Shown one piece after another: positions 14,648 through 50,782 of a stretch of DNA of 64,000 bases. This DNA comes from Chondrosia reniformis. Its lineage: Eukaryota > Porifera > Demospongiae > Chondrillida > Chondrillidae. The translations under genes and the position numbers were made by a program. The stretch is from NCBI GenBank assembly GCA_947172415.1, contig OX359194.1:3224001-3288000 (forward strand). The letters are read 5' to 3'. The notes under the pieces are model-generated. The model saw nothing but the letters and a program-made list of their open reading frames with translations, ran no database searches and was not told the DNA's origin. Position 1 is the stretch's first letter; each line of letters opens with the position of its first letter.

Positions 14648-15096
14648 CTAGAAGTGCTTACGCAGACAGCTCGCTGCTTCACATGAAGTGGACCCCCCTG
14701 CATTAAGTTCATAATTATATAGTGGGTGTTTGATCTCATGGGGTGAGAGTATCTCTTCTATACTAATGGCCACTTCCTCTTCAGTAGCAGCTTCACCACA
14801 TTCTGTGGTCTCATCTGAACCATAGTAAGAGTAACCATGGACCAAGTCTCTTTTAATAATAGTGCCTTTGGCCACTCCTTGATGGTCACATGGGTAAACT
14901 AGTGTAACTAAAAGGAAAAAAGAAACCTTATGTAATAAAAGTATGCAAAAAGGATCGATTTTTTGGGATTCTTTTCTTTACCTTTATCACCTTCATTGAA
15001 GTAATCATTTACGTCACTAAAAAAAGATAAATTATGTAACTCCTGTGGTATCCCGAGTGCATGCAGTGGCAGCAATGAACAAGCAAAAATGGACAT
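14648..15096 (-). CDS. Family R gene, copy 1 (two exons, 124 aa)
   Basis: Exon 1 is 14982-15096, exon 2 is 14648-14907, separated by a 74-bp intron with GTAAAG donor and TTCCTTTTAG acceptor. The protein starts MSIFACSLLPLHALGIPQ, a short hydrophobic stretch that may be a signal peptide. It continues SFFSDVNDYFNEGDKVTLVY, then the core AKGTIIKRDLVHGYSYYGSD, an acidic stretch (TEEEVAISIEEILSPHE) and the tail WEAASCLRKxF found in the family. AATAAA follows the stop directly. A run of six C (plus strand) encodes the Gly-Gly in LNAGG. I recognise no known domain. A third frame (MRELTKEDQKNIEI) is also open over the upstream part. Confidence 0.6.
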
Positions 15097-15252
15097 GGAT
15101 GGCCTTTGTGTAAGAACCAGAGCCAGGCATACAATCTAGAGAGCCTCTTGCTTGAAGACGTTTTTAGAAATAGAATATGCCTGATTTCAATGTTTTTTTG
15201 ATCTTCTTTTGTTAACTCCCGCATACTTTCACTGAGCGTTTTCCCCTTCCGA

Positions 15253-16170
15253 TGATAAAATAAAATTCTCTGCTTTACTTAAGACAAATAAACCATATTA
15301 CTTCACAAGGACGAAAAACAACCACGCTTTAAAAACTAATACTTCTTTGTTCAAATTCTTCAATTGCCGTTGTAATAACTTAAGCACAACACATATAAAT
15401 TTCATTAAGAGAGTGATCAGCACTCCTGGTGAAGGAGTGACTGTCACTCTTGCTTACTGTCACTCTTGCTAAAGGAGTGATCCTCTCCTTATTATATATA
15501 ATGCAAGCTATGCATCAATATTGGCTCATGCATGCATTGGTTTTGGAATTATACACAACAGAAATAAATGTAATAATTATAAAGATTAAAATAAATATTA
15601 TAATATACAAGGTATACTAGCTGCATATACATGATAATCAAAAAGGTAATTTTGTAGTTACATGTATAGTCTATATAAAAATAAATTAAAAACCTAATTT
15701 AGCTACAAGTTTATAAGGTCTTTGTTTTTTAGTTAATTTTATATTTAGAAGGGAATATTCTAAAATGAATGCGCGCCTATAGGATAAGATAAATTTAAAG
15801 TGAAAAAGATGAGAAGAAGATTACGAGTGCCTCTGATATTTTCTCAATTAACTCCTGTGGTAGCCCGAATGCATGCAGTGGCAGCAACGAACAAGCAAAA
15901 ATGGACATGGATGGCCTTTGTGTAAGAACCAGAGCCAGGCATACGATCTAGAGAGCCTGTTGCTTGAAGATGTTTTTAGAAATAGAATATGCTCGATTTC
16001 GATGTTTGATCTTCTTTTGTTAACTCACGCTGAATTTCACTAAGCTTTTTTCCCTTCCGATGATAAAATAAAATTCTCTGCTTTACTTAAGACGAATAAA
16101 TCATATTACTTCACAAGGACGAAAAACAACCACGCTTTTAAACTAATATTTCTATGTTCAAATTCTTTAC
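15253..16170. repeat. Mosaic of truncated R and S family pieces
   Basis: 15253-15395 is the start of another R unit. 15410-15842 matches the start of the S block and breaks off inside the S terminal exon region (TTTCTCAA then TTAACTCC). 15846-16165 is again R sequence. The S start at 15413 recurs at 16264, about 850 bp later. The junctions show repeated recombination among R and S copies. No intact gene is present. Confidence 0.65.
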
Positions 16171-16350
16171 TGTTAAAAATTTGGGGTGAGGCTCACACCA
16201 AATTTAAGGTGATTTCCTTCCCTCCAGGAGTACACCATATTCAGTGTGATAATCACACTATCTATTAAGAGAGTGATCAGCACTCCTGGTGAAGGAGTGA
16301 CTGTCACTCTTGCTTACTGTCACTCTTGCTAAAGGAGTGATCCTCTCCTT
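16171..16350. repeat. Cluster of small GTGA/TCAC hairpins
   Basis: Successive short inverted words lie side by side: GGTGAGGCTCACACC, GTGTGATAATCACAC, GAGTGATCAGCACTC and GGAGTGACTGTCACTC. Each has a stem of 5-6 bp and a loop of 3-4 nt. The block starts ACTGTTAAAAATTTGGGGTG, which matches (inverted) the sequence ending at about 25188. It may be a transposon end or structured RNA. It precedes S-block sequence here and at 30465 and 42015. Confidence 0.6.
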
Positions 16351-16709
16351 ATTATATATAATGCAAGCTATGCATCAATATTGGCTCATGCATGCATTGG
16401 TTTTGGAATTATACACAACAGAAATAAATGTAATAATTATAAAGATTAAAATAAATATTATAATATATAAGGTATACTAGCTGCATATACATGATAATCA
16501 AAAAGGTAATTTTGTAGTTATATGTATAGTCTATATAAAAATAAATTAAAAACCTAATTTAGCTACAAGTTTATAAGGTCTTTGTTTTTTAGTTAATATT
16601 ACATTTAGAAGGGAATATTCTAAAATGAATGCGCGCCTATAGGATAAGATAAATTTAAAGTGAAAAAGATGAGAAGAAGATAACGAGTGCCTCTGATATT
16701 TTCTCAATT

Positions 16710-17047
16710 TTACAGAGGATCTTTTTTTTCTAGTATGAGGTAGCATTCCTGAATGCCATCTTCAAAATTGCCTGTTGCTAGAAGGCACCCTTGACCACTG
16801 GCAAGGGTTGCAGCCTCCTTGGCTAGATTAGAATTAGCCTGTACAAATAAATGACCATGAAAACTGATAAATATATGTAATTCTATTTATGAATGAAATC
16901 TATATAGATAATATATACATGTATATATGCATATATTGACGTACATACCAAGAATGGCACTACACAAGTTTTAAAGTATGTACTTACAAAAGAAATGAGC
17001 GGAGAAAGCCTCTTACTGACAATGGAATGGGAATCCACAGAGCCTTC
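16710..17047 (-). CDS. Family S gene, copy 1: last two coding exons, TPR-like
   Basis: Exon 16988-17047 (EGSVDSHSIVSKRLSPLISF) joins in phase 0 to exon 16710-16838 through a GTAAGT donor and TTTGTACAG acceptor, ending in TAA. The last exon reads ANSNLAKEAATLASGQGCLL then ATGNFEDGIQECYLILEKKD, which fits one tetratricopeptide repeat (small residue positions, G-N-F-E-D-G-I, terminal D-P). TPRs bind protein partners; the partner is unknown. The upstream exon(s) with the start codon were not found. A perfect CRE palindrome (TGACGTCA, 17097-17104) sits just upstream in transcription order. Confidence 0.5.
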
Positions 17048-17096
17048 CTATTCCTCTCAGAATCTTAGGCAGAAATCACGATGAGGTGACGTCACT

Positions 17097-17104
17097 ATTC
17101 CCAT
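17097..17104. promoter_or_regulatory. CRE palindrome upstream of S exons
   Basis: TGACGTCA occurs in copy 1 only. The other three S copies read TGACCTCA at the same place (19813 region, 31368 region, 42918 region). The site could bind CREB/ATF-type factors. Function is inference. Confidence 0.35.
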
Positions 17105-17898
17105 GGGAATTGCAATCTTGATACCAGACAAAAGTAGTTATGATTGTATTGGGTCTTTTCCTGTTGGAAACGCATAGGTTACAAAACTTCCGTATAGAAT
17201 GCTATCAATATTAGATAAACGTTTACGTTAACGTTGATAACGCGTAGATTACGAAACTGCCTTAGAATATCAATCAATAATATCACTGACGTTTGCACCT
17301 TATATTAATGTACAGTATAATGATGCTAGAAGTTTTGTAACTTATACGCGTGTTTCCTACTAATTTGCCTGGATATGATTGAAATCGTTAAAAGGTGAGT
17401 CTTTTTGTTACGTTATCCCCTCACACGAAGCCAATGCAGCTGTGTGTGCATTTGTACAGTAAAATTCCTATTATTCCTAGCAGCTGTACAGTATCCACGT
17501 GTGTGTAGAATTAAATGTAACCAATATAAGAGTCAGACGAAAGTGCTTGTGTGTGTTTTGACTTGACAGGTGTTTGTAAATGAGGATTAGTCTTCAAAAT
17601 TCGTATTAATACACCATGCATAGCAGCACTATCCATGCGTGTGTAGCAAAACTTTTAATTGAATGTAACCATTAAGTCCCTAATAGGATTGGTTCTTTTT
17701 TTAATGGCTATGCTACGCTTACTCGCTCGTAGTAGCGCAGAATGGGATCCCGCAGATTGCTTAAGGGAATTTATTGAGCGCTTTGTCAAGGACAAAAAAC
17801 AACCACTTTTTAAAAACTAATACTTCTTTGTTCAAATTCTTCAATTGTAGTTGTAATAACTTAAACACCACACATATAAATTTCCTTTTATTAACACC

Positions 17899-18371
17899 CT
17901 AGAAGCGCTTACGCAGGCAGCTTGCTGCTTCCCATGAAGTGAACCCCCCCACATTAAGTTTATAATTATATTGTGGGTGTTTGATCTCATGGGGTGAGAG
18001 TATCTCTTCTATACTGAAGGCCACTACCTCTTCAGTAGCAGCTTCACCACATTCTGTGGTCTCATCTGAACCATAGTAAGAGTAACCATGGACCAAGTCT
18101 CTTTTAATAATAGTGCATTTGGCCATTCCTTGATGGTCACATGGGTAAACTAGTGTAACTAAAAGGAAAAAAGAAACCTTATGTAATAAAAGTATGCAAA
18201 AAGGATCAATATTTTGGGATTCTTTTCTTTACCTTTATCACCTTTATTGAAGTAATCATGTATGTCACTAAAAAAAGAAACTCCTGTGGTAGCCCGAGTG
18301 CATGCAGTGGCAGCAACGAACAAGCAAAAATGGACATGGGTGGCCTTTGTGTGAGAACCAGAGCCAGGCAT
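17899..18371 (-). CDS. Family R gene, copy 2 (132 aa, alternative N-terminus)
   Basis: Exon 1 is 18233-18371 and exon 2 is 17899-18158, with a 74-bp intron. A 10-nt deletion relative to copy 1, just before SFFSD, puts a different upstream frame in line. The protein starts MPGSGSHTKATHVHFCLFVA and continues ATACTRATTGVSFFSDIHDY into the shared core. The run of seven C encodes Gly-Gly in LNVGGFTSW, and the ending is LRKRF. The downstream AATAAA is retained. Confidence 0.55.
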
Positions 18372-18515
18372 ACCATCTAGAGAGCCTCTTGCTTGAAGAC
18401 ATTTTTAGAAATAGAATATGCCCGATTTCGATGTTTTTTTGATCTTCTTTTGTTAACTCCTGCTTACTTTTGCTAAGCGTTTTCCCCTTCCGATGATAAA
18501 ATGAAATTCTCTGCT

Positions 18516-19144
18516 TTACTTAACACGAATATACCATATTACTTGACCAGGACGAAAATCAACCACACTATAAAAACTAATACTTCTTTTGTTCAAATTC
18601 TTCAATTGCCGTTGTAATAACTTAAACACCACACATATAAATTTCCTTTTATTAACACCCAAGAAGCACTTACACAGGCAGCTTGCTGCTTCCCATGAAG
18701 TGACCCCCCCCCCCGCATTAAGTTCATAATTATATAGTGGCTGTTTGATCTCATGGGGTGAGAGTATCTCTTCTATACTGAAGGCCACTACCTCTTCAGT
18801 AGCAGCTTCACCACATTCTGTGGTCTCATCTGAACCATAGTAAGAGTAACCATGGACCAAGTCTCTTTTAATAATAGTGCCTTTGGCCACTCCTTGATGG
18901 TCACATGGGTAAACTAATATAACTAAAAGGAAAAAAGACCCTGATGTAATAAAAGCTTGCAAAAAGGATCAATTTTTTGGTATTCTTTTCTCTACCTTTA
19001 TCACCTTCATTGAAGTAATCATGTATGTCACTAAAAAAAGATAAATAATGTTACTCCTGTGGTAGCCCGAGTGCATGCAATGGCAGCAACGAACAAGCAA
19101 AAATGGTCAAGGGTGGCCTTTGTGTGAGAACCAGAGCCAGGCAT
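18516..19144 (-). pseudogene. Family R copy 3 (first in unit 1), altered
   Basis: Exon 2 starts at 18922 and keeps the core frame through an 11-C run (AGGGVTSWEAASC). The usual stop codon is changed (CCCAAG for CCCTAG on the plus strand), so the frame extends to 18516. The ATG of the MSIFACS start is lost, and the other start (ATGCCTGGC) runs into a stop before SFFSD because the 10-nt deletion is absent. I read it as non-functional. Confidence 0.5.
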
Positions 19145-19437
19145 AAGATCTAGAGAGCCTCTTTCTTGAAGACTTTTTAGAAATTGAATATGCCTTAAGG
19201 TATACTAGCTGTATGAACATGATAATCAAAAAGGTAATTTTGTAGTTATATGTATAGTCTATATAGAAATAAATTAAAAACCTAATTTAGCTACAAGTTT
19301 ATAAGGTCTTTGTTTTTTAGTTAATTTTACATTTAGAAGGGAATATTCTAAAATGAATGCGCGCCTATAGGATAAGATAAATTAAAAGTGAAAAAGATGA
19401 GAAGAAGATTACGAGTGCCTCTGTTATTTTCTCAATT

Positions 19438-19774
19438 TTATAGAGGATCTTTTTTTCTAGTATAAGGTAGCATTCCTTAATGCCATCTTCAAAATTGCAT
19501 GTTGCTAGAAGGCACCCTTGACCACTGGCAAGGGTTGCAGCCTCCTTGGCTAGATTAGAATTAGCCTGTACAAATAAATGACCATGAAAACTGATAAATA
19601 TATGTAATTCTATTTATGAATGAAATCTATATAGATAATATATACATGTATATATGCATATATTGACGTACATACCAAGAATGGCACTACACAAGTTTTA
19701 AAGTATGTACTTACAAAAGAAATGAGCGGAGAAAGCCTCTTACTGACAATGGAATGGGAATCCACAGAGCCTTC
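19438..19774 (-). pseudogene. Family S copy 2 (unit 1)
   Basis: Same two exons as copy 1 (19715-19774 and 19438-19565). The T run near the end is one base shorter, which shifts the last codons, and one residue of the TPR-like motif is changed (GCATGT for GCCTGT on the plus strand). The upstream CRE-like site reads TGACCTCA. Confidence 0.45.
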
Positions 19775-20630
19775 CTATTCCTCTCAGAATCTTAGGCAGA
19801 AATCACAATGAGGTGACCTCACTATTCCCATGGGAATTGCAATCTTGATACCAGACAAAAGTAGTTATGATTGTATTGGGTCTTTTCCTGTTGGAAACGC
19901 ATAGGTTACAAAACTTCCATATAGAATGCTATCAATATTAGATAAACGTTTACGTTAACGTTGATAACGCGTAGATTACGAAACTTCCTTAGAATATCAA
20001 TCAATAATATCACTGACGTTTTCACTTTATACTAATGTACAGTATAATGATGCTAGAAGTTTTGTAACCTATACGCGTGTTTCCTACTGATTTGCCTGGA
20101 TATGATTTAAATCGTTAAAAGGTGAGTCTTTTTGTTACGTTATCCCCTCACACGAAGCCAATGCAGCTGTGTGTGCATTTGTACAGTAAAATTTCTATCA
20201 TTACTAGCAGCTGTACAGTATCCACGTGTGTGTAGCTTTTAACTAAACGTAACCAATATAAGAGTCAGACGAAAGTGCTTGTGTGTGTTTTGACTTGACA
20301 GGTGTTTGTAAATGAGGATTAGTCTTCAAAATTCGTATTAATACACCATGCATAGCAGCACTATCTATGCGTGTGTAGCAAAACTTTTAATTGAATGTAA
20401 CCATTAAGTCCCTAATAGGATTGGTTCTTTTTTTAATGGCTATGCTACGCTTACTCGCTCGTAGTAGCGAAGAATGGGATCCCGCAGATTGCTTAAGGGA
20501 ATTCATTGAGCGCTTTGTCAAGGACGAAAAACAACCACGTTTTAAAAACTAATACTTCTTTGTTCAAATTCTTCAATTGCAGTTGTAATAACTTAAACAC
20601 CACACGTATAAATTTCCTTTTATTAACACC

Positions 20631-21103
20631 CTAGAAGCGCTTACGCAGGCAGCTTGCTGCTTCCCATGAAGTGAACCCCCCCACATTAAGTTTATAATTA
20701 TATTGTGGGTGTTTGATCTCATGGGGTGAGAGTATCTCTTCTATACTGATGGCCACTTCCTCTTCAGTAGCAGCTTCACTAAATTCTGTGGTCTCATCTG
20801 AACCATAGTAAGAGTAACCATGGACCAAGTCTCTTTTAATAATAGTGCCTTTGGTCACTCCCTGATGGTCACATGGGTAAACTAGTGTAACTAAAAGGAA
20901 AAAAGAAACCTGATGTAATAAAAGCTTGCAAAAAGGATCAATATTTTGGGATTCTTTTCTTTACCTTTATCACCTTTATTGAAGTAATCATGTATGTCAC
21001 TAAAAAAAGAAACTCCTGTGGTAGCCCAAGTGCATGCAGTGGCAGCAACGAACAAGCAAAAATGGACATGTGTGCCCTTTGTGTGAGAACCAGAGCCAGG
21101 CAT
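20631..21103 (-). CDS. Family R gene, unit 1 second copy (MPGSG type, 132 aa)
   Basis: Exons 20965-21103 and 20631-20890 with a 74-bp intron. It has the 10-nt deletion and therefore the MPGSGSHTKGTHVHFC start. The core reads TKGTIIKRDLVHGYSYYGSD with EFSEAATEEE. A seven-C run keeps the tail in the LRKRF frame. Confidence 0.55.
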
Positions 21104-21331
21104 ACCATCTAGAGAGCCTCTTGCTTGAAGACATTTTTAGAAATAGAATATGCCCATTTCGATGTTTTTTTGATCTTCTTTTGTTAACTCCTGCTTACTT
21201 TTGCTAAGCGTTTTCCCCTTCTGATGATAAAATAAAATTCTCTGCTTTACTTAACACGAATATACCATATTACTTGACAAGGACGAAAATCAACCACACT
21301 ATAAAAACTAATACTTCTTTGTTCAAATTCT

Positions 21332-21844
21332 TCAATTGCCGTTGTAATAACTTAAACACCACACGTATAAATTTCCTTTTATTAACACCCTAGAAGCACT
21401 TACACAGGCAGCTTGCTGCTTCCCATGAAGTGACCCCCCCCCCCCCGCATTAAGTTCATAATTATATAGTGGCTGTTTTATCTCATGGGGTGAGAGTATC
21501 TCTTCTATACTGATGGCCACTTCCTCTTCAGTAACAGCTTCACCAAACTCTGTGGTCTCATCTGAACCATAGTAAGAGTAACCATGGACCAAGTCTCTTT
21601 TAATAATAGTGCCTTTGGCCACTCCTTGATGGTCACATGGGTAAACTAGTGTAACTAAAAGGAAAAAAGAAACCTTATGTAATAAAAGCTTGCAAAAAGG
21701 ATCGATTTTTTTGGGATTCTTTTCTTTACCTTTATCACCTTCATTGAAGTAATCATGTACGTCACTAAAAAAAGATAAATAATGTAACTCCTGTGGTAGC
21801 CCGAGTGCATGCAGTGGCAGCAACGAACAAGCAAAAATGGACAT
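21332..21844 (-). CDS. Family R gene, unit 1 third copy (MSIF type, 145 aa, shifted C-terminus)
   Basis: Exon 1 is 21730-21844 (MSIFACSLLPLHALGLPQ), exon 2 is 21332-21654. The 75-bp intron has no in-frame stop and a length divisible by three, so unspliced RNA would also encode a continuous protein 25 residues longer. A run of 13 C puts the end into another frame: GGGGSLHGKQQAACVSASRV and onward to YYNGN. Confidence 0.55.
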   Translation of the reverse strand: MSIFACSLLPLHALGLPQELHYLSFFSDVHDYFNEGDKGKEKNPKKIDPFCKLLLHKVSFFLLVTLVYPCDHQGVAKGTIIKRDLVHGYSYYGSDETTEFGEAVTEEEVAISIEEILSPHEIKQPLYNYELNAGGGGSLHGKQQAACVSASRVLIKGNLYVWCLSYYNGN

Positions 21845-22165
21845 GGATGGCCTTTGTGTAAGAACCAGAGCCAGGCATACAATCTAGAGAGCCTCTTGCT
21901 TGAAGACGTTTTTAGAAATAGAATATGCCCGATTTCAATGTTTTTTTGATCTTCTTTTGTTAACTCCCGCATACTTTCACTGAGCGTTTTCCCCTTCCGA
22001 TGATAAAATAAAATTCTCTGCTTTACTTAAGACAAATAAACCATATTACTTCACAAGGACGAAAAACAACCACGCTTTAAAAACTAATACTTCTTTGTTC
22101 AAATTCTTCAATTGCCGTCGTAATAACTTAAGCACCACACATATAAATTTCATTTTGTTAACACC

Positions 22166-22330
22166 CTAGAAGCGCTTACGCAGGCAGCTTGCTGCTTCCC
22201 ATGAAGTGACCCCCTCCGCATTAAGTTCATAATTATATAGTGGGTGTTTGATCTCATGGGATGAGAGTATCTCTTCTATACAGAAGGCCACTACCTCTTC
22301 AGTAGCAGCTTCACCACATTCTGTGGAACA
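22166..22330 (-). pseudogene. Family R 3'-terminal fragment, unit 1
   Basis: Only the end of exon 2 (from TECGEAATEE to LRKRF) is present. At about 22325 R sequence stops abruptly and unrelated sequence begins. The frame continues upstream for about 28 codons (KLGQTWCSPGEPCST) but without an ATG. The C run is interrupted (CCCCCTCC). Confidence 0.6.
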
Positions 22331-23006
22331 TGGCTCTCCTGGAGAACACCATGTTTGACCCAATTTTCTCCATTCCTCATAGCATGAGCTACAGGACCAA
22401 CCCCTCACTGGCCAGAGGGTGCCCTCTGAACGTGAAGAACTCAGAACTAAAGTTTTGTAGCTACTTCTCCTTCTCTCATTTGAGCTCCTTTATCTCTGAT
22501 GAGATCTCCACCTGTTTCACTCCTGGAAAGTGGTACCTCATAAAATTTCCTGGGTACTGGTGGTCACTGTCGATAATATGGTCCCTCGTAAGTCAGCTGC
22601 TGAGACTGTTACCCAAATTAATGAGGTAAACCCTGTGATTGGCAGCACATGGGTGGCCATTTTATAGCATCATACCTATAACCTCTTTGTATATGCAGTT
22701 TTGTGTAAAGTTCTACCCTACAGAGTGTCACCAAAAGAAGAAGTTTAAGGCTAGTATAGGGTCTTTTCCTGTAAACTTTACTGATGCAACAACATCATCA
22801 TCAGTTAGTACGCCTGTGGAACATATCCGCAAATTTCCAATTTTTGTAAATTGTCATATTAGCACCTACAGAAGTGTCACATTCCAGGCGGAAGCGTCTT
22901 TAGCATGTGACCTGCCCGTGAAGCGGAGCACCCAGCACTGAAACGTCACGAGTCATCACTAGTCGTTATAGATGTCAAATTATAGTATAGCGGAGGAAAG
23001 CCAATA
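22331..23006 (-). other. Degraded coding-like sequence, unassigned
   Basis: On the minus strand near 22490-22620 a short frame reads IDSDHQYPGNFMRYHFPGVK followed by QVEIS. It resembles the jelly-roll segment S-x-H-P-Y-x-x-N...PG found beside ubiquitin-ligase and ZZ-finger proteins. Stops on both sides make it a relic at best. Plus-strand frames over the same DNA are not convincing. Copies lie at about 33881-34556 and 45430-46105. Confidence 0.3.
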
Positions 23007-23192
23007 AAGGCCTATGTGACTGAAACGTTCTATTTTTCTTTTGATTATACTACGTTAATTATCAAAGAAGAATAGAACGTTTCGGTCACATAGGCCTTAA
23101 TTCCTCAGCTATTATTAACCAAGTATAGTAGCTGAAGAATTAAGGCGTACGTGACCGAAGCGTTCTGTTTTCTTTTGATTATACCTCGTTAA
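23007..23192. repeat. Foldback/palindromic repeat, unit 1
   Basis: Arm AAGGCCTATGTGACTGAAAC... (23007-23045) is inverted at 23061-23098, and a third diverged copy in the first orientation starts at about 23141. Between arms two and three lies a second inverted pair (TTCCTCAGCTAT / ATAGTAGCTGAAGAA). Copies: 34557-34742 and 46106-46291. Confidence 0.7.
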
Positions 23193-24517
23193 TTGCTCAT
23201 ACATTTTTGCCATTGATAATTACATAGATATTAGTAGACATGCAATATGCTTACTGTTTCCACTTACCTCTTACGACAACAAAAACTTCGATCAAGGAAA
23301 CTGTATCGCTACCGAGAAGCCTTACTTGAAATGTCAACTTCGGAAGTCTAATGTTTGTATAACGCCTTGCCAAATATTTGGGTGCATATGCAACGTCATA
23401 AAACGTCATTGTATGATGGCTAAGCTATACTACTAATTTTGGCTGATAATCACGTGACAATACCATTACTCGAAGGAGAAGAGACAAATGGAAAATAAAC
23501 GGATTATTAGACAGTGGAGGATTGTATATCTAACCATTTTTGACATCAATCTCTTCAGCAAGTAACAGCCTAAAAGTTGTATGCATACTCCTGGAATATT
23601 CCCTTGTTTAACTGAGATATGAAGTACTAGAGGTGCCCGATAAAGGTACGAAAATATGTTTTCGATTATAATTCAAAAACCAAAGGGAATTTAAAAGGAG
23701 TATACATACAATCATTAGATATCATTGTCCTTCATAGATTGGTGTCACCATTTATTCTATATTCGCATTTTTCACTGTCTAATAAAATTTCTTTGACGAT
23801 TTGGCACCTCTCACTTACGGCCGCTTACCTTCTCCTTTAAGCCTGCAATCGTGACGCTCTTTTAACCAAAATATTAAGAAAGAATAGCGCTTCAATTCTA
23901 TATGATTTGTTTAGCGATACGATATTTCTACCGTAAAATAGAATAAATTAAGAAAGAGTGTTAGTTAGTAACTTTTATTGAAAATTCCCGGAAGTGTGGA
24001 CATATTCCACTAGCGTATGCTTCAAATAGATGCAAGTTACTCTGAAACTCACAGAAATGGTTTAGCTCTCATTTGATCCTTCAGTTACGTAACCATCAGT
24101 ATATATTCGACTGGCCAAGGGTCACTTTGTGGTGACCATATATACAGACTTCGCCCCACCTCCTGCTCAGAGACAGTGGATTGTGTAACTGGCTGTCCTG
24201 CTCATGCAAGATTTGTTCAAATGAAGACGTATGTTTGTGAATTAAAGAACTATTGTCTAACCAATTATATGCTGTCTCTCCTTCAGTACAGCTCCAGAGA
24301 GAATGTTTTCAAAAATTTCCAGTTGAGGGGCCCTCCCTTCTTGTGCGAGATTTGCCAGTTTGATATATCCAAGTCAGCCGACTTTGAAATGATTCTGCTA
24401 AGCAAACTGGTGGGGGAGGACACCCTTTTTCTTCCAACTGTCACTCCCCACTATATATCTCTTTCTCTGTTTTATGTATAGGTTTGCCATGTACTTATAT
24501 TATAACACCAAGACTAT
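23193..24517. other. Unit 1 intergenic stretch with a possible ZU5 relic
   Basis: Most of this holds nothing I can name. On the minus strand near 24270-24340 a frame reads QLEIFENILSGAVLKERQHI, similar to the ZU5 core (L-x-I-P-x-x-A-x-x-E-x-x-x-I). The frame is short and closed by stops nearby, and a 101-codon plus-strand frame overlaps it, so the call is weak. Copies lie at offsets of about 11,550 and 23,099. Confidence 0.3.
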
Positions 24518-25103
24518 TGTATTCTGCTGAACTAAGTGTCACTATTAGCTATTCTGCTTTAACTAAGTGTCTCTATAGGCTATTCTGCTGTAACTAAGTG
24601 TCACTATAGGCTATTCTGTTTTAACTGAGAATCTCTATAGGCTATTCTGCTGTAACTAAGTGTCTCTATAGGCTATTCTGCTTTAACCAAGTGTCTCTAT
24701 TGGCTGTTCTGTTGTAACTAAGAGTCTCTATAGGCTATTTTGCTTTAACTACGTGTCTCTATAGGTTATTCTGCTGTAAGTAAGTGTCTCTATAGGCTAT
24801 TCGGCTTTAACTAAGTGTCTCTATAGGTTATTCTGCTGTAAGTAAGTGTCTCTATGGGCTATTCTGCTTTAACTAAGTGTCTCTATAGGTTATTCTGCTG
24901 TAAGTAAGTGTCTCTATAGGCTATTCGGCTTTAACCAAGTGTCTCTATAGGCTGTTCTGTTGTAGCTAAGAGTCTCTATAGGCTATTTTGCTTTAACTAC
25001 GTGTCTCTATAGGCTACTCTGCTGTAACTAAGTGTCTCTATAGGCTATTCTGCTGTAACTAAGAGTCTCTATGGGCTATTCTGCTTTAACTAAGAGTCTC
25101 TGT
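24518..25103. repeat. 31-bp minisatellite, about 19 copies, unit 1
   Basis: The unit is TCTATAGGCTATTCTGCTGT plus AACTAAGTGTC. Copies alternate CTGCTGTAA and CTGCTTTAA, giving a 62-bp higher-order period. Copy number and variant order are the same in units 2 (36068-36653) and 3 (47617-48202) as far as I can read. Confidence 0.9.
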
Positions 25104-25183
25104 AACCAACAGTCTGCAAAGAGGAGTGATGTTCACTCTAAAGACAAGGTGTGATTGTCATAGTGTGTGTTCACACTAAAATT

Positions 25184-25462
25184 TTAACAGTGCTGTTTCA
25201 ACTCTTCTAATCGTTTCTTCGCTTTATCGTAAGTATTTAGCAACGTGATACAAGTAAAGCAAATGTAATCACCAGCACGAAAGAGGGGTTCTATGAATGA
25301 AAAATTTGGGATCAGGAGATTCTCCAGTACAATGGACTTGATAATTTCACGTACAGTCTCTGCAGAGTTCCCTGAAAGTACAAGCCTCTTCTTCTCAGAC
25401 AAGCTTGACACTGTCAATTTGGGGCAAATGTGGCATTCATAGGGTTGCAAATCGACTTGCAT
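25184..25462 (-). CDS. Zinc-finger-like small protein or N-terminal exon, unit 1
   Basis: An ATG opens 92 codons: MQVDLQPYECHICPKLTVSS ... FRAGDYICFTCITLLNTYDK AKKRLEELKQHC. The two Cys pairs (C-x2-C at about 10-13 and 68-71) with the following helix resemble ZAD-type or transposon-associated N-terminal zinc fingers, which dimerise or bind DNA. The stop codon falls exactly where a transposon-like end (CACTGTTAAAATTTTAG) begins, so the original frame may have been longer. Downstream exons were not identified. Confidence 0.5.
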   Translation of the reverse strand: MQVDLQPYECHICPKLTVSSLSEKKRLVLSGNSAETVREIIKSIVLENLLIPNFSFIEPLFRAGDYICFTCITLLNTYDKAKKRLEELKQHC

Positions 25463-25639
25463 GGCTTTATTTACTTAGGTGTTTGCTGCGTAAAAAAGAT
25501 ACTTGACTTCACTAGAAGGCTTACTTACCCCATAAGCATATTTGTAGGTGACAATTTGTGATCTAGAGTGTTACTGTAGATGCATGGGTGGAAATGGTTT
25601 TGGTGAGAAATGTGTCATACCACTGTTCTGACAAAATGA

Positions 25640-27662: not shown

Positions 27663-27683
27663 TTGCGTGAGAATGTAGGCGTA

Positions 27684-34556: not shown

Positions 34557-34742
34557 AAGGCCTATGTGACTGAAACGTTCTATTTTTCTTTTGATTATAC
34601 TACGTTAATTATCAAAGAAGAATAGAACGTTTCGGTCACATAGGCCTTAATTCCTCAGCTATTATTAACCAAGTATAGTAGCTGAAGAATTAAGGCGTAC
34701 ATGACCGAAGCGTTCTGTTTTCTTTTGATTATACCTCGTTAA
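34557..34742. repeat. Foldback/palindromic repeat, unit 2
   Basis: Counterpart of 23007-23192 with one visible change (GCGTACATGACC for GCGTACGTGACC). Confidence 0.7.
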
Positions 34743-36067
34743 TTGCTCATACATTTTTGCCATTGATAATTACATAGATATTAGTAGACATGCAATATGC
34801 TTACTGTTTCCACTTACCTCTTACGACAACAAAAACTTCGATCAAGGAAACTGTATCGCTACCGAGAAGCCTTACTTGAAATGTCAACTTCGGAAGTCTA
34901 ATGTTTGTATAACGCCTTGCCAAATATTTGGGTGCATATGCAACGTCATAAAACGTCATTGTATGATGGCTAAGCTATACTACTAATTTTGGCTGATAAT
35001 CACGTGACAATACCATTACTCGAAGGAGAAGAGACAAATGGAAAATAAACGGATTATTAGACAGTGGAGGATTGTATATCTAACCATTTTTGACATCAAT
35101 CTCTTCAGCAAGTAACAGCCTAAAAGTTGTATGCATACTCCTGGACTATTCCCTTGTTTAACTGAGATATGAAGTACTAGAGGTGCCCGATAAAGGTACG
35201 AAAATATGTTTTCGATTATAATTCAAAAACCAAAGGGAATTTAAAAGGAGTATACATACAATCATTAGATATCATTGTCCTTCATAGATTGGTGTCACCA
35301 TTTATTCTATATTCGCATTTTTCACTGTCTAATAAAATTTCTTTGACGATTTGGCACCTCTCACTTACGGCCGCTTACCTTCTCCTTTAAGCCTGCAATC
35401 GTGACGCTCTTTTAACCAAAATATTAAGAAAGAATAGCGCTTCAATTCTATATGATTTGTTTAGCGATACGATATTTCTACCGTAAAATAGAATAAATTA
35501 AGAAAGAGTGTTAGTTAGCAACTTTTATTGAAAATTCCCGGAAGTGTGGACATATTCCACTAGCGTATGCTTCAAATAGATGCAAGTTACTCTGAAACTC
35601 ACAGAAATGGTTTAGCTCTCATTTGATCCTTCAGTTACGTAACCATCAGTATATATTCGACTGGCCAAGGGTCACTTTGTGGTGACCATATATACAGACT
35701 TCGCCCCACCTCCTGCTCAGAGACAGTGGATTGTGTAACTGGCTGTCCTGCTCATGCAAGATTTGTTCAAATGAAGACGTATGTTTGTGAATTAAAGAAC
35801 TATTGTCTAACCAATTATATGCTGTCTCTCCTTCAGTACAGCTCCAGAGAGAATGTTTTCAAAAATTTCCAGTTGAGGGGCCCTCCCTTCTTGTGCGAGA
35901 TTTGCCAGTTTGATATATCCAAGTCAGCCGACTTTGAAATGATTCTGCTAAGCAAACTGGTGGGGGAGGACACCCTTTTTCTTCCAACTGTCACTCCCCA
36001 CTATATATCTCTTTCTCTGTTTTATGTATAGGTTTGCCATGTACTTATATTATAACACCAAGACTAT

Positions 36068-36653
36068 TGTATTCTGCTGAACTAAGTGTCACTATTAGCT
36101 ATTCTGCTTTAACTAAGTGTCTCTATAGGCTATTCTGCTGTAACTAAGTGTCACTATAGGCTATTCTGTTTTAACTGAGAATCTCTATAGGCTATTCTGC
36201 TGTAACTAAGTGTCTCTATAGGCTATTCTGCTTTAACCAAGTGTCTCTATTGGCTGTTCTGTTGTAACTAAGAGTCTCTATAGGCTATTTTGCTTTAACT
36301 ACGTGTCTCTATAGGTTATTCTGCTGTAAGTAAGTGTCTCTATAGGCTATTCGGCTTTAACTAAGTGTCTCTATAGGTTATTCTGCTGTAAGTAAGTGTC
36401 TCTATGGGCTATTCTGCTTTAACTAAGTGTCTCTATAGGTTATTCTGCTGTAAGTAAGTGTCTCTATAGGCTATTCGGCTTTAACCAAGTGTCTCTATAG
36501 GCTGTTCTGTTGTAGCTAAGAGTCTCTATAGGCTATTTTGCTTTAACTACGTGTCTCTATAGGCTACTCTGCTGTAACTAAGTGTCTCTATAGGCTATTC
36601 TGCTGTAACTAAGAGTCTCTATGGGCTATTCTGCTTTAACTAAGAGTCTCTGT
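36068..36653. repeat. 31-bp minisatellite, unit 2
   Basis: Same repeat and order of variants as in unit 1. An unstable array that has kept the same length points to very recent duplication. Confidence 0.9.
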
Positions 36654-36733
36654 AACCAACAGTCTGCAAAGAGGAGTGATGTTCACTCTAAAGACAAGGT
36701 GTGATTGTCATAGTGTGTGTTCACACTAAAATT

Positions 36734-37012
36734 TTAACAGTGCTGTTTCAACTCTTCTAATCGTTTCTTCGCTTTATCGTAAGTATTTAGCAACGTGATA
36801 CAAGTAAAGCAAATGTAATCACCAGCACGAAAGAGGGGTTCTATGAATGAAAAATTTGGGATCAGGAGATTCTCCAGTACAATGGACTTGATAATTTCAC
36901 GTACAGTCTCTGCAGAGTTCCCTGAAAGTACAAGCCTCTTCTTCTCAGACAAGCTTGACACTGTCAATTTGGGGCAAATGTGGCATTCATAGGGTTGCAA
37001 ATCGACTTGCAT
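36734..37012 (-). CDS. Zinc-finger-like small protein, unit 2
   Basis: Identical in translation to the 92-aa frame at 25184-25462. Confidence 0.5.
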   Translation of the reverse strand: MQVDLQPYECHICPKLTVSSLSEKKRLVLSGNSAETVREIIKSIVLENLLIPNFSFIEPLFRAGDYICFTCITLLNTYDKAKKRLEELKQHC

Positions 37013-38040
37013 GGCTTTATTTACTTAGGTGTTTGCTGCGTAAAAAAGATACTTGACTTCACTAGAAGGCTTACTTACCCCATAAGCATATTTGTAGGTG
37101 ACAATTTGTGATCTAGAGTGTTACTGTAGATGCATGGGTGGAAATGGTTTTGGTGAGAAATGTGTCATACCACTGTTCTGACAAAATGATGTAATAGCAA
37201 AATGGAGGAAGAACCGTCACAAGCTGAACTCTCTGCCACCTCCATATTGACTGCAGCACTGGTGACCTTGTATTCCCAGGCCCACCAATGAATCAATAGC
37301 AGCCACTTCTGCAAAGTCAGTTTGGATCTGATGAAAAAGCTGCCCTCCCTTATTAATTTGGTATTTTTGCAACTTGGACATCTTCATCTATTAATTTAAC
37401 ATACACTAATTATGTCATTATTAATCTTAACATTTACCTCTTTTAGAATTTTCAATGTTTATTGTATTAAGCACTGCATTTTATAAAATTACAAACTGAA
37501 TCCATCTTTAATGTCTCTTCGAGGACCCCAGTCCATATAAATGCTGTAATTACTGCAAGTCATAGTGCCAGCTAGCAACCTTTTTGATTGAAACCAACTA
37601 ATCAAATCATCACTTGAGCAAAAAGCCACTTTTCCTATTTCTATAAAAGACATTTTCAAATCGCCGAAATAAACTGCCTTAATTTATTGCATCAGAATTT
37701 AATTACGCATACGAATCAAATCAAACAGATGAAAATATTGGAAGTTAAATCGATCAGTACTTAATACGTAAATTAGGCATTTATTCCTTTATTACGAAGG
37801 CTTATACAATAATAGCATAATTGTCTTATATGTACCTATGTAATAGTTGCGCAATTACGATTACATCACGCTAGATTTTGTGACTTAAAATAGTAACAAT
37901 TTCACAATAAATTTTATATATTATTACAAAAATAAGTATAAACAGTTTTTTTCACATCAATTCTTGCTAGTTGATCCCTTCTCAAAGCCCGTAACTTTAT
38001 AAAGCTTTGAAAATTCTATATTTTATGCTTATTGAAATTT

Positions 38041-39212
38041 TTGTATATTAACTGCACAGTAGTTTCATCTGAAAATATGCAATTGGAAAAGCTGTCTCCT
38101 AAGTTTTCTTTGGCCCATGCCAAGTATTTTGCTTCTCTAATCATCTGGCAATAGGCACTGCTTTGCCAAGTCCAACCTAGTTCCCTTTGACATTTCCAAA
38201 GCTGATTCTCTAGAGAGTATCTTCTGTAGTACGGTACCAGTCAGTAAAAAGTTCTACGGGTTGTACATAGGTACACGCCTTGGTTAGCATGCGGGTTTGC
38301 TACGGGTTTACAACTGGTTTACCCGTTGCGCTTTAGTTTCAAAACGGGTTGTATATGTACGCCTTCACCCGTCGCTCTATAGATGTGTTAAAAGAAAGAT
38401 ATTGACACTCACAGAATTCAAATCATTATTTTATAGTGTTACAATTGCTCGCTGGTGTGAAACTTTTGTAAAAGGAGATCAATCATGAGTCTGAGTCTGA
38501 GCTTGGTTTACGATTAATAGATCCTGTTGTTTTGCTGAGCCTTAGAACGATTTTAAAAAAGAATTCTCTACTTTACTTATGGTGAATACACCATTTAAAC
38601 TACTTACGTACAACAACAATAAATCCAAACACTAAAGGTAACGCTATACAAATTTACACTTCGTTAAAATTCCATTCGATTTACTTAACGCTAACTTTTC
38701 AAACCACTATAAAAATTCCTCACATTAAAAACTCGAAGAGCTTGTGTGCAGGTAAACTTTAGAACGGGTTTTCATAACAGTCGAGCATACGGTTTGTGAA
38801 CAGGTTTGCAATGGGTAGGTACGTGTACAGGTACGGGCGTTGACGGTTCACTTTTTACTGACTGGTGCCGTACTTTGATTGTTGTTTCATCATCATCTTC
38901 CATTCTTGAATCAACCTTTTCCTTGGTTTCATCAGTTATTTTAGATTTTCGTCCTGAGCCTTCCCTCCTGGAAATCAAATTAGTTGCTTCATACTTTTTT
39001 AGGAATTCCCAAATACCTTGCCTAGTAAATAGCAGATTTTCATCACGTAATAGCTTTGCTGTAGTTGGCACTTTAAAGCCTTCTCTCCACATTGAAACAA
39101 TTTTTTGGTGTTTATAGGTACTGTACTTCGACATCGTGTTTAAGCTTTTACTAAAATTGAATTCACTTATCGATAAGGTGTTATACAAACCGTTAATTGT
39201 TAAGTATGCCAT
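38041..39212 (-). pseudogene. Tc1/mariner relic with MITE (38232-38870), unit 2
   Basis: Same structure, insertion point and TA flanks as 26491-27662. The insertion therefore predates the tandem duplication. Confidence 0.8.
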
Positions 39213-39233
39213 TTGCGTGAGAATGTAGGCGTA

Positions 39234-39460
39234 TCAAAACTTCGGAGGAAGCTTCGTAGCTTCAAAACTTCGTAAGAGCTTGGAAAAACTTTGCAAGCTT
39301 ACCCACAAATGTCGACACCGGTAATGAGCACCAGAGTTGGAAAAGCAATTTCTTACGGTCTTCAAAAGATGGAGTCGATCTGATATAAAATAAATATACC
39401 TCTCTTCTCTAGCAAAAGGGTAACAAGTCTTGTAAGTAACAGACGAATTCAAAGCTGAAT
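39234..39460 (-). pseudogene. P-element-like fragment, unit 2
   Basis: Identical in translation to the fragment at 27684-27910. Confidence 0.55.
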
Positions 39461-39669
39461 GAAGCTGGAAAAATTTTCTGTTACTTTTGGCACCATCATA
39501 ACAGAATTAGAATACTTTGAAGCTGAGCTGTTCCAGATGTTAGGCTGTTGATCCTATTATACATATGGCAAACTGACATCACTTCAAGCTGTATTATGCA
39601 CACATACAGAAAGCTGTATATACCTGTTGTTGCAAAGTGAGCAACAGAAAATGTTTTTCCTGAAAAGAT

Positions 39670-40639
39670 ACTCTGTACCATCAGAAAGAACATCTGCTTA
39701 GCAACTGGAAATGCTACTCCCTCAGATTCTAGGCTTTTCAAGTCTTCCTCAATAGAAGTTAAATATGTTTTCAAAAGCATCGCTGGCTGTCTTCCTAAAG
39801 CGCCCCCGCCACATATACGCATCTAAGTGTGATGGCAATTGAGGAGCACGGCAACCTTTCATTCGTTTAAATTTTCTCCTAACCTGAGACCAGTAACATT
39901 ACACGTGTTGGGTGTTGACCCCTGTAGTTGGTTCTACAAAATGCAGTGAATGGTTCACTGTTGAATGGGATGCCGCATTACGTAAGGAACTGACACTGCT
40001 ATAGGCTTTCCACTGATCAGCTTTCACAGTGGTCCCAGGGTTAACGTGTGACTGTATAATGGGTAGCAATGTCTGAGCCCGTCTGTCAGGAACTATTTCC
40101 ATGTATCCTAGTGCAGGTTGGGTCGAGGTGTCTACCATGCCAAAAACCCAAACTTCTCTACTGGTAGCCCTACCCCTATGATGTTTTGACTTATGCCGAA
40201 ATAAGCTCTCGTCTATCTGCACAATTTTATTGGAGCCTTCAAGTTGTATGTTGGTATATACATGCTTTCTACAGCAAATATGTCTCAGCCATCCATAAAC
40301 ATCAATGGCTGCATCGATGGAAACCTCAGTGTCTATTTTGGCGTGGGATACAGGGTCTTGACGAGCCCAGAAGAACATCAGTAGAAGCCACTTTTGTAGA
40401 CTTAACCTGGATTTATCAAAAAACTGTCTTTTCTTATAGTGGATGACATCAATTGCATTACAGGATTCTGTATTGCAGGATATTATAACAAGGAGAGTGT
40501 TTTCATAAATTACGTACAGTAGGTAGAATGGGCTATGTTTGACTCCATACAGAACAATTAACAAAGGATTACACTTAGGTCTTACAGAGACATTTGGAGG
40601 TGGGGTAGTACGAGGTAACACTAGATTGTCCTTAGACAT
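39670..40639 (-). pseudogene. Merlin transposase, unit 2
   Basis: Same 246-aa frame with the stop in place of the third catalytic residue as in unit 1. Confidence 0.85.
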
Positions 40640-41308
40640 ACTAGCTACTTTATGCTTAAACTTGATTCTAAATTAGAGGCAATGTTATGTCTTAGACTGT
40701 AAAGGGGGATTACCTATGGATGGAATTTGTCATTTTAAGAATAGGTTCTTTGGATAGATATCACTAGTTGCAATGTTACTTTTTTAATTAATTAATGGAC
40801 TAACCTTATCAACAGCTCTCAAGTCAAACTTGTGTTGCTTGACTAAGTACTTAACCATCTCAAGGGGACCCTGGAATTGCACTTACTGGGTATGTTGACG
40901 GGCTTAATTGCTGATGACATAAAAGGGGAATTAATCATGTGTTACCACAATTGAATCACTATTTTAACCCATCACCAGTCGTGTTACCATTTTTCGCAAT
41001 ACCGTTTACAGTCGTGAACCCAACATTACCAGTCGCTTTATTTGAGATAAAATACTATAAGTTTACTAGCAAATGTTAGTTATGCTTATAGATAGTTCAT
41101 TTCTAAAGTTACAGTCAATTTTCATCTCAAACTTTGACTCTGATGATAAAATAAAATTCTCTGCTTTACTTAACACGAATATACCATATTACTTGACAAG
41201 GACGAAAATCAACCACACTATAAAAACTAATACTTCTTTGTTCAAATTCTTCAATTGCCGTTGTAATAACTTAAACACCACACGTATAAATTTCCTTTTA
41301 TTAACACC

Positions 41309-41792
41309 CTAGAAGCACTTACACAGGCAGCTTGCTGCTTCCCATGAAGTGACCCCCCCCGCATTAAGTTCATAATTATATAGTGGGTGTTTGATCTCAT
41401 GAGGTGAGAGTATCTCTTCTATACTGAAGGCCACTACCTCTTCAGTAGCAGCTTCACCACATTCTGTGGTCTCATCTGAACCATAGTAAGAGTAACCATG
41501 GACCAAGTCTCTTTTAATAATAGTGCCTTTGGCCACTCCCTGATGGTCACATGGGTAAACTAGTGTAACTAAAAGAAAAAAGAAACCTGATGTAATAAAA
41601 GCTTGCAAAAAGGATCGATTTTTTTGGGATTCTTTTCTCTACCTTCATCACCTTCATTGAAGTAATCATGTACGTCACTAAAAAATAAATAAATAATGTA
41701 ACTCCTGTGGTAGCCCGAGTGCATGCAGTGGCAGCTACAAACAAGCAAAAATGGACATGGGTGGCCTTTGTTTTAGAACCAGAGCCAGGCAT
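41309..41792 (-). pseudogene. Family R copy, first of unit 3
   Basis: Same sequence as the first copy of unit 2 (29759-30242), eight-C run, both starts out of frame with the core. Confidence 0.5.
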
Positions 41793-42540
41793 ACGATCTA
41801 GATAGCCTGTCGCTTGAAGATGTTTTTAGAAATAGAATATGCTCGATTTCGATGTTTGATCTTCTTTTGTTAATTCACGCTGAATTTCACTGAGCTTTTT
41901 TCCCTTCCGATGATAAAATAAAATTCTCTGCTTTACTTAAGACGAATAAATCATATTACTTCACAAGGACGAAAAACAACCACGCTTTTAAACTAAAATT
42001 TCTATGTTCAAATTCTTTACTGTTAAATATTTGGGGTGAGGCTCACACCAAATTTAGGGTGATTTCCTTCCCTCCAGGAGCACACCATATTCAGTGTGAT
42101 AATCACACTATCTATTAAGAGAGTGATCAGCACTCCTGGTGAAGGAGTGACTGTCACTCTTGCTAAAGGAGTGATCCTCTCCTTATTATATATAATGCAA
42201 GCTATGCATCAATATTGGCTCATGCATGCATTGGTTTCGGAATTATACACAACAGAAATAAATGTAATAATTATAAAGATTAAAATAAATATTATAATAT
42301 ATAAGGTTTACTAGCTGCATATACATGATAATCAAAAAGGTAATTTTGTAGTTATATGTATAGTCTATATAAAAATAAACTAAAAACCTAATTTAGCTAC
42401 AAGTTTATAAGGTCTTTGTTTTTTAGTTAATTTTACATTTAGAAGGGAATATTCTAAAATGAATGCGCGCCTATAGGATAAGATAAATTTAAAGTGAAGA
42501 AGATGAGAAGATTACGAGTGCCTCTGATATTTTCTCAATT

Positions 42541-42878
42541 TTACAGAGGATCTTTTTTTTCTAGTATGAGGTAGCATTCCCGAATGCCATCTTCAAAATT
42601 GCCTGTTGCTAGAAGGCACCCTTGACCACTGACAAGGGTTGCAGCCTCTTTGGCTAGATTAGAATTAGCCTGTACAAATAAATGACCATGAAAACCGATA
42701 AATATATGTAATTCTATTTATGAATGAAATCTATATAGATAATATATACATGTATATATGCATATATTGACGTACATACCAAGAATGGCACTACACAAGT
42801 TTTAAAGTATGTACTTACAAAAGAAATGAGCGGAGAAAGCCTCTTACTGACAATGGAATGGGAATCCACAGAGCCTTC
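42541..42878 (-). CDS. Family S gene, unit 3: last two coding exons
   Basis: Exons 42819-42878 and 42541-42669, same frame and TPR-like ending as in unit 2. Confidence 0.5.
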
Positions 42879-43734
42879 CTATTCCTCTCAGAATCTTAGG
42901 CAGAAATCACAATGAGGTGACCTCACTATTCCCATGGGAATTGCAATCTTGATACCAGACAAAAGTAGTTATGATTGTATTGGGTCTTTTCCTGTTGGAA
43001 ACGCATAGGTTACAAAACTTCCATATAGAATGCTATCAATATTAGATAAACGTTTACGTTAACGTTGATAACGCGTAGATTACGAAACTTCCTTAGAATA
43101 TCAATCAATAATATCACTGACGTTTTCACTTTATACTAATGTACAGTATAATGATGCTAGAAGTTTTGTAACCTATACGCGTGTTTCCTACTGATTTGCC
43201 TGGATATGATTTAAATCGTTAAAAGGTGAGTCTTTTTGTTACGTTATCCCCTCACACGAAGCCAATGCAGCTGTGTGTGCATTTGTACAGTAAAATTTCT
43301 ATCATTACTAGCAGCTGTACAGTATCCACGTGTGTGTAGCTTTTAACTAAACGTAACCAATATAAGAGTCAGACGAAAGTGCTTGTGTGTGTTTTGACTT
43401 GACAGGTGTTTGTAAATGAGGATTAGTCTTCAAAATTCGTATTAATACACCATGCATAGCAGCACTATCTATGCGTGTGTAGCAAAACTTTTAATTGAAT
43501 GTAACCATTAAGTCCCTAATAGGATTGGTTCTTTTTTTAATGGCTATGCTACGCTTACTCGCTCGTAGTAGCGAAGAATGGGATCCCGCAGATTGCTTAA
43601 GGGAATTCATTGAGCGCTTTGTCAAGGACGAAAAACAACCACGTTTTAAAAACTAATACTTCTTTGTTCAAATTCTTCAATTGCAGTTGTAATAACTTAA
43701 ACACCACACGTATAAATTTCCTTTTATTAACACC

Positions 43735-44206
43735 CTAGAAGCGCTTACGCAGGCAGCTTGCTGCTTCCCATGAAGTGAACCCCCCCACATTAAGTTTATA
43801 ATTATATTGTGGGTGTTTGATCTCATGGGGTGAGAGTATCTCTTCTATACTGATGGCCACTTCCTCTTCAGTAGCAGCTTCACTAAATTCTGTGGTCTCA
43901 TCTGAACCATAGTAAGAGTACCCATGGACCAAGTCTCTTTTAATAATAGTGCCTTTGGTCACTCCCTGATGGTCACATGGGTAAACTAGTGTAACTAAAA
44001 GAAAAAAGAAACCTGATGTAATAAAAGCTTGCAAAAAGGATCAATATTTTGGGATTCTTTTCTTTACCTTTATCACCTTTATTGAAGTAATCATGTATGT
44101 CACTAAAAAAAGAAACTCCTGTGGTAGCCCAAGTGCATGCAGTGGCAGCAACGAACAAGCAAAAATGGACATGTGTGCCCTTTGTGTGAGAACCAGAGCC
44201 AGGCAT
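43735..44206 (-). CDS. Family R gene, unit 3 second copy (MPGSG type)
   Basis: Exons 44068-44206 and 43735-43994. Same as unit 2, including the GTACCCATGG variant, which groups units 2 and 3 against unit 1. Confidence 0.55.
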
Positions 44207-44502
44207 ACCATCTAGAGAGCCTCTTGCTTGAAGACATTTTTAGAAATAGAATATGCCCATTTCGATGTTTTTTTGATCTTCTTTTGTTAACTCCTGCTTA
44301 CTTTTGCTAAGCGTTTTCCCCTTCTGATGATAAAATAAAATTCTCTGCTTTACTTAACACGAATATACCATATTACTTGACAAGGACGAAAATCAACCAC
44401 ACTATAAAAACTAATACTTCTTTGTTCAAATTCTTCAATTGCCGTTGTAATAACTTAAACACCACACGTATAAATTTCCTTTTATTAACACCCTAGAAGC
44501 AC

Positions 44503-44943
44503 TTACACAGGCAGCTTGCTGCTTCCCATGAAGTGACCCCCCCCCGCATTAAGTTCATAATTATATTGTGGCTGTTTTATCTCATGGGGTGAGAGTATCT
44601 CTTCTATACTGATGGCCACTTCCTCTTCAGTAACAGCTTCACCAAACTCTGTGGTCTCATCTGAACCATAGTAAGAGTAACCATGGACCAAGTCTCTTTT
44701 AATAATAGTGCCTTTGGCCACTCCTTGATGGTCACATGGGTAAACTAGTGTAACTAAAAGGAAAAAAGAAACCTTATGTAATAAAAGCTTGCAAAAAGGA
44801 TCGATTTTTTTGGGATTCTTTTCTTTACCTTTATCACCTTCATTGAAGTAATCATGTACGTCACTAAAAAAAGATAAATAATGTAACTCCTGTGGTAGCC
44901 CGAGTGCATGCAGTGGCAGCAACGAACAAGCAAAAATGGACAT
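44503..44943 (-). CDS. Family R gene, unit 3 third copy (121 aa, third C-terminal frame)
   Basis: Exons 44829-44943 and 44503-44753. The C run is nine bases, one fewer than in unit 2, which moves the tail into the third frame: GGGHFMGSSKLPV and stop. Otherwise it matches the unit 2 copy. Confidence 0.55.
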   Translation of the reverse strand: MSIFACSLLPLHALGLPQELHYLSFFSDVHDYFNEGDKGKEKNPKKIDPFCKLLLHKVSFFLLVTLVYPCDHQGVAKGTIIKRDLVHGYSYYGSDETTEFGEAVTEEEVAISIEEILSPHEIKQPQYNYELNAGGGHFMGSSKLPV

Positions 44944-45264
44944 GGATGGCCTTTGTGTAAGAACCAGAGCCAGGCATACAATCTAGAGAGCCTCTTGCTT
45001 GAAGACGTTTTTAGAAATAGAATATGCCCGATTTCAATGTTTTTTTGATCTTCTTTTGTTAACTCCCGCATACTTTCACTGAGCGTTTTCCCCTTCCGAT
45101 GATAAAATAAAATTCTCTGCTTTACTTAAGACAAATAAACCATATTACTTCACAAGGACGAAAAACAACCACGCTTTAAAAACTAATACTTCTTTGTTCA
45201 AATTCTTCAATTGCCATCGTAATAACTTAAGCACCACACATATAAATTTCATTTTGTTAACACC

Positions 45265-45434
45265 CTAGAAGCGCTTACGCAGGCAGCTTGCTGCTTCCCA
45301 TGAAGTGACCCCCTCCGCATTAAGTTCATAATTATATAGTGGGTGTTTGATCTCATGGGATGAGAGTATCTCTTCTATACAGAAGGCCACTACCTCTTCA
45401 GTAGCAGCTTCACCACATTCTGTGGAACATGGCT
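45265..45434 (-). pseudogene. Family R 3'-terminal fragment, unit 3
   Basis: Same truncated copy as at 22166 and 33716. Confidence 0.6.
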
Positions 45435-50761: not shown

Positions 50762-50782
50762 TTGCGTGAGAATGTAGGCGTA

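Follow-up and report, generated by a model that had tools for sequence, protein, structure and literature searches.

A change of frame at a G run is confined to one array position of a duplicated gene-like family in the sponge Chondrosia reniformis

We analyzed a 64,000-nucleotide stretch of the genome assembly of the sponge Chondrosia reniformis (GCA_947172415.1, contig OX359194.1, positions 3,224,001 to 3,288,000 of the forward strand), referred to below as the window and numbered from its first base. The window holds 14 minus-strand copies of a short gene-like sequence, the R family, each with a run of G near its 3′ end. It also holds an 11.55-kb tandem repeat made up of unit 1 (19196–30751; 11,556 bp), unit 2 (30752–42301; 11,550 bp), and a partial unit 3 (42302–52714; approximately 10.4 kb, with homology fading from approximately 52688); upstream of these lies an older, likewise partial unit 0 (15846–19194), with approximately 96.3% identity to 30145–33479. 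The original prediction held that the length of the run re-frames the C-terminus throughout the family, resembling the contingency tracts of bacterial phase-variable genes, and gave neutral slippage as an alternative. We find that a change of frame is indeed present in the assembled sequence, that it is much narrower than first claimed, and that it is probably an ordinary event, namely a homopolymer change in gene fragments under little or no constraint.

We read an R copy as a 35-nt small exon, a GT–AG intron of 73–75 nt, and a stop-containing terminal exon, followed by AATAAA. The GT–AG signals supporting this putative exon–intron structure are retained in all 11 full copies; the remaining three, R6 (22169–22326), R10 (33719–33876), and R14 (45268–45425), are 5′-truncated and lack the 5′ half. 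AATAAA begins six bases past the usual stop position in 11 of the 14 copies, ten of which also have the stop, the eleventh being R3, which has AATAAA without it. The three truncated copies carry AACAAA in its place, and their frame and stop are nonetheless retained. A 446-bp repeat (15404–15849 and 16264–16709, 98.9% identity) adjoins both R1 and an additional R fragment at 15850–16167, which holds only the portion upstream of the exons.

Run lengths are given as C on the plus strand, which is G in the coding (minus) sense. On recount, the values previously listed (6, 7, 11, 7, 13, and 5 in the first six copies, followed by 8, 7, 10, 5 and 8, 7, 9, 5) were all correct. Measured between the fixed minus-strand flanks AATG and ACTTCATG, however, the interval that contains the run is 11 nt long in ten of the 14 copies: R1 (G6; 14693–14698), R2 (G7; 17944–17950), R4 (G7; 20676–20682), R6 (the G5 of an interrupted GGAGGGGG; 22210–22214, located from an anchor at 22224), R7 (uninterrupted G8; 29803–29810), R8 (G7; 32230–32236), R10 (G5 of an interrupted run; 33760–33764, from anchor 33774), R11 (G8; 41353–41360), R12 (G7; 43780–43786), and R14 (G5 of an interrupted run; 45309–45313, from anchor 45323). 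The interval occurs in these copies as CA-G6-TCC, T-G7-TTC, C-GGAGGGGG-TC, or C-G8-TC, so that their differing G counts of 5, 6, 7, and 8 are caused by edge substitutions or an interrupting A rather than by gained or lost bases. All ten share a single frame and end in the same tail, TS[WC]EAASCL[RC]K[RHC]F-stop. With the interval constant in most of the family, family-wide re-framing by run length was rejected.

The interval length is changed in four copies only, and all four occupy the same array position, that of the middle copy: R3 (G11; 18704–18714; 14 nt, or +3), R5 in unit 1 (G13; 21434–21446; 16 nt, or +5), R9 in unit 2 (G10; 32987–32996; 13 nt, or +2), and R13 in unit 3 (G9; 44537–44545; 12 nt, or +1). 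These are also the only copies in which an uninterrupted run exceeds 8 bases, the runs of all others being 8 or shorter, or interrupted. Since R3 stays in frame (its usual TAG is TTG, giving read-through to 18516), the usual frame is lost in three of the 14 copies, with R5 and R9 in frame +2 and R13 in frame +1. The proposed re-framing thus stands for these three copies and fails for the ten with an unchanged interval and one tail; similarly, all three tail peptides that had been described are present, yet the changed copy in units 1 to 3 takes two frames. A splice acceptor directly 5′ of the run (ATGCAG followed by Gs) was considered and discarded, as it occurs in R1 only, the other copies having TGCGG or TGTGG.

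The claim that the frame switched within nearly identical duplications is borne out by the assembled sequence. Outside the run, R9 and R13 differ at none of 601 sites and R5 and R13 at one of 601, leaving the run lengths of 13, 10, and 9 as almost the only difference between these copies. Over approximately 10.4 kb, to approximately 52688, units 2 and 3 are separated by two substitutions (49803 and 49817) and a single indel, which is the G run of the middle R copy. Unit 1, marked by a substitution of its own at 21468, differs more from units 2 and 3, with many of the differences clustered at 19202–19592 near the unit boundary; this segment, within the first 400 bases of unit 1, looks as if crossover or conversion had brought it in from the older unit. 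Of the homopolymers of at least 6 bases, the comparison of units 1 and 2 shows two changed out of 24, that of units 2 and 3 one out of 19, and that of units 1 and 3 two out of 19; the G run of the middle R copy changed in every comparison, and the other changed homopolymer is a T7/T8 run. In length, this G run exceeds every other homopolymer of its unit. It is the kind of run in which slippage or miscounting would be anticipated, and the concentration of change in the longest runs that slippage predicts is what we observe for it. More distantly, R3 shows 25–26 differences from R5, R9, and R13 in 598 sites, and R7 shows 23–24 from the same copies in 600. By position R3 groups with R5, R9, and R13, but in sequence it is roughly as distant from them as R7, and this fork of the tree is weak. 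The tree, like the core substitution ratios and indel counts below, covers full copies, with the truncated R6, R10, and R14 set aside.

We considered next what the altered frames would encode. In R13, frame +1 reaches a stop 10 nt upstream of the usual one and gives the short tail HFMGSSKLPV; a premature stop in the last exon is not expected to trigger nonsense-mediated decay. In R5 and R9, the first stop in frame +2 lies 58 nt past the first base of the usual stop and 43 nt past the end of AATAAA, so that the frames of these two copies, like that of R3, extend beyond the probable poly(A) signal. Cleavage usually takes place 10–30 nt downstream of AATAAA. The messages of R5, R9, and R3 may therefore be stop-less, in which case they would be unpromising sources of a useful alternative tail.

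Whether the R exons are under coding constraint at all is a separate question, on which the evidence is mixed. Of the six possible reading frames of the R7 terminal exon, one is open; in simulation, however, 76% of copies remained open after five random substitutions, and chance survival of an open frame is therefore unsurprising. The ratio of nonsynonymous to synonymous differences per site (pN/pS) of the core is 0.61 in frame, compared with 0.78 and 0.60 in the two shifted frames (28 pairs from 8 copies). Variable sites are spread over codon positions 1/2/3 as 7/5/7 in the core (11 full copies) and 2/2/3 in the tail (all 14 copies), with low power in both cases. At this low power, we detected neither a synonymous excess over the shifted frames nor selection on core or tail. 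The conservation previously described for the core reflects only the recent origin of the copies: 30 of 284 exon columns are variable, against 45 of 353 noncoding columns, in the 11 full copies (here and in the pN/pS analysis, the exon columns take in one intron base, that adjoining the small exon, with no effect on any conclusion). Coming from upstream, the small exon is entered in different frames in different copies, which fits intron or untranslated sequence at that place; as this frame is also cut short in R3, an uninterrupted first exon beginning with a signal-like sequence (MSIFACSLLPL...) was not counted as evidence. The R protein had no match in Pfam (E ≤ 1 and E ≤ 10), NCBIfam (E ≤ 10), or PDB sequences (E ≤ 10), and no confirmed relative was found in the viral or prokaryote contigs searched. 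In a low-confidence structural model of R2 (mean predicted local distance difference test score, pLDDT, 49.7), secondary structure (strands and a helix) extends to residue 53 of 86, and the segment 60–86 falls below a pLDDT of 50. We take the R copies to be probable duplicated 3′ ends of a gene, the 5′ part of which was not found.

The explanation that we favor, and consider reasonably probable, is slippage at one long G run in recently duplicated gene fragments, with the frame following passively. On this account, R fragments would have multiplied head to tail and subsequently within the 11.55-kb tandem duplications; at one array position, the G tract after AATGC would have become a pure run of more than 8 bases; polymerase slippage would then have lengthened and shortened this run, yielding lengths of 11, 13, 10, and 9 in the four units; and the frame of the last residues would have followed run length in sequence with little or no constraint. 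Such a history presupposes that the run lengths are real in the animal, takes replication slippage as the likely mechanism, and would leave the shifted copies nonfunctional or nearly so. It is supported by the observation that only uninterrupted runs of at least 9 bases vary, the ten other copies keeping their interval, and by the state of the changed copies themselves, in that R3, the middle copy of unit 0, is without the usual stop and R5, R9, and R3 all run past AATAAA. Studies in Caenorhabditis elegans offer a point of reference: one report describes G/C runs as mutating more than A/T runs under mismatch-repair knockdown, with net gain below 9 bp, net loss above it, and an indel peak for G/C runs at 8 bp (PMC8727991). 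Lengths of 11, 13, 10, and 9 would agree with that pattern, without constituting proof of it. In another report, only four of 396 G/C tracts of this species fall in predicted exons, and its authors suggest that the genes concerned may be mispredicted (PMC2211496), which fits our doubt about the coding status of R.

Several observations weigh against slippage in unconstrained fragments. Outside the run, none of the 8 indel events falls in exons, even though exons make up 284 of 637 columns (P = 0.009); past coding constraint is therefore possible. Four of these events lie beside runs of at least 5 bases, and without them P rises to 0.09. The constant 11-nt interval in ten copies could likewise reflect selection for frame. 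The 11 full copies comprise just 8 distinct sequences; few independent lineages are thus available, and every test is weak. A smaller point is that the pure G8 is identical in R7 and R11, despite the indel peak given for 8-bp G/C runs in the worm study cited above (PMC8727991).

A sequencing or assembly artifact, in which the G run was miscounted in each unit to give 13, 10, and 9, or in which the units are in part an assembly duplication, is a less probable but serious alternative. Homopolymer length is the main source of error in HiFi reads (PMC7545148), which would matter here if such reads underlie the assembly. The G run is moreover where a miscount would be looked for, since in each unit it is the longest homopolymer, and it is also the sole indel between units 2 and 3. 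What speaks for a real change is R3, whose run of 11 lies in a unit diverged by approximately 3–4% and which gives the length change some depth beyond the near-identical units; the units also differ by substitutions, which argues against their being plain assembly copies. A further rival, that the run lies outside translated sequence because the R exons are relics or belong to introns or untranslated regions, where frame is irrelevant, strikes us as quite improbable. The protein searches without a match, the substitutions without a coding signature, and the varying frame of entry into the small exon would all fit it; the single open frame of the R7 terminal exon, the stop followed by AATAAA in most copies, the intact splice signals of every full copy, and the lack of exon indels outside the run are harder to square with it.

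Among the readings that assign the run a function, little supports a contingency-type switch, germline or somatic, in which slippage in the terminal exon alternates three C-termini, and we regard such a switch as quite unlikely. Nonsense-mediated decay is not expected to act on slippage frameshifts in a terminal exon, and the middle copies of three near-identical units do show two shifted frames, with the usual frame kept in R3 and the other copies. The run also lies 3′ of the predicted folded part in the low-confidence R2 model (folded to residue 53 of 86), and there is a metazoan precedent in the on/off behavior of coding homopolymers in tumors, with MSH6 C8 and MSH3 as the reported cases (PMC11250277). 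Set against these points are the ten copies that keep their frame with a run of at most 8 or an interrupted one, a core and tail without the substitution signature of constraint, and, in frame +2, a stop placed 43 nt downstream of AATAAA. Least probable of all, in our judgment, is that a hypermutable germline G run has been kept at one array position in order to diversify C-termini among the usual, HFMGSSKLPV, and extended or stop-less forms.

Like bacterial contingency tracts, R has a mononucleotide tract in an open, though only putatively coding, frame, with a length that differs between near-identical sequences (R5, R9, and R13, with sequencing error possible) and alters the frame downstream. 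Unlike such tracts, which would be expected to remain pure and long across a family, R varies at one copy position and has a pure run of more than 8 in four of its 14 copies, the other ten having none; neither selection nor reversibility was detected in this single assembly, and the host is a metazoan, as its introns, transposon types, and BEN-like domain would also suggest. The likeness to phase-variable genes is thus unsupported, given one array position, three shifted copies, and, at low power, no selection. Among the open-access literature matches listed (titles and the beginnings of abstracts), contingency tracts appeared for bacteria and the MSH6 case for tumors, and none concerned a tract of this kind in the germline of an animal gene family. 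The MSH6 C8 case resembles R as an animal coding homopolymer that drifts in and out of frame; it is somatic, in repair-deficient cells, with expression lost and regained, whereas R concerns duplicated copies in one assembly (PMC11250277). The SpTransformer (Sp185/333) genes of sea urchins are likewise a clustered invertebrate family in repeats and segmental duplications; frameshifted messages, attributed to RNA editing, and one pseudogene among 198 sequenced genes are reported for them (PMC5491942), and no homology to R is implied. A further parallel is with the mutation-accumulation lines of C. elegans, where G/C runs of approximately 8–11 bases gain and lose bases in a length-dependent manner; there slippage was measured in pedigreed lines under mismatch-repair knockdown, whereas in R it would be inferred from duplicated copies (PMC8727991).

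Each tandem unit carries a 31-bp minisatellite of approximately 18.8 copies (24520–25101, 36070–36651, and 47619–48200) and, on the minus strand, an open reading frame (28349–29122, 39899–40672, and 51448–52221) whose first copy, the one searched, has an ISXO2-like (DDE_Tnp_IS1595) transposase domain (Pfam E = 3.7e-13), as would fit a Merlin-type transposon. Downstream of the units lie a reverse transcriptase fragment (RVT_1, E = 5.5e-11; 57619–58323, plus strand) and a plus-strand segment at 61222–61923 with HTH_32 (E = 4.2e-6) and weak DDE_3 (E = 0.006) matches, both under the Pfam cut-off, which we take to be probable Tc1/mariner-like remnants. A BEN domain near the window end (63591–63998, plus strand) scores 22.9 bits against a Pfam cut-off of 23.2, and an N-terminal piece of a DEAD/DEAH helicase, RecQ-like by eye, scores 24.2 bits against a cut-off of 26 (11178–11522, minus strand). 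An Rfam scan of the window returned no matches at gathering scores.

For gene families of this kind, the R copies carry a caution, in that raw run lengths compared across a family exaggerate frame changes where the adjoining bases differ. Should the variation at the middle copy prove real and under selection, the run would represent a germline counterpart, in an animal, of bacterial contingency tracts. As it stands, the R family is an example of a long G run becoming the fastest-changing site between near-identical duplications.

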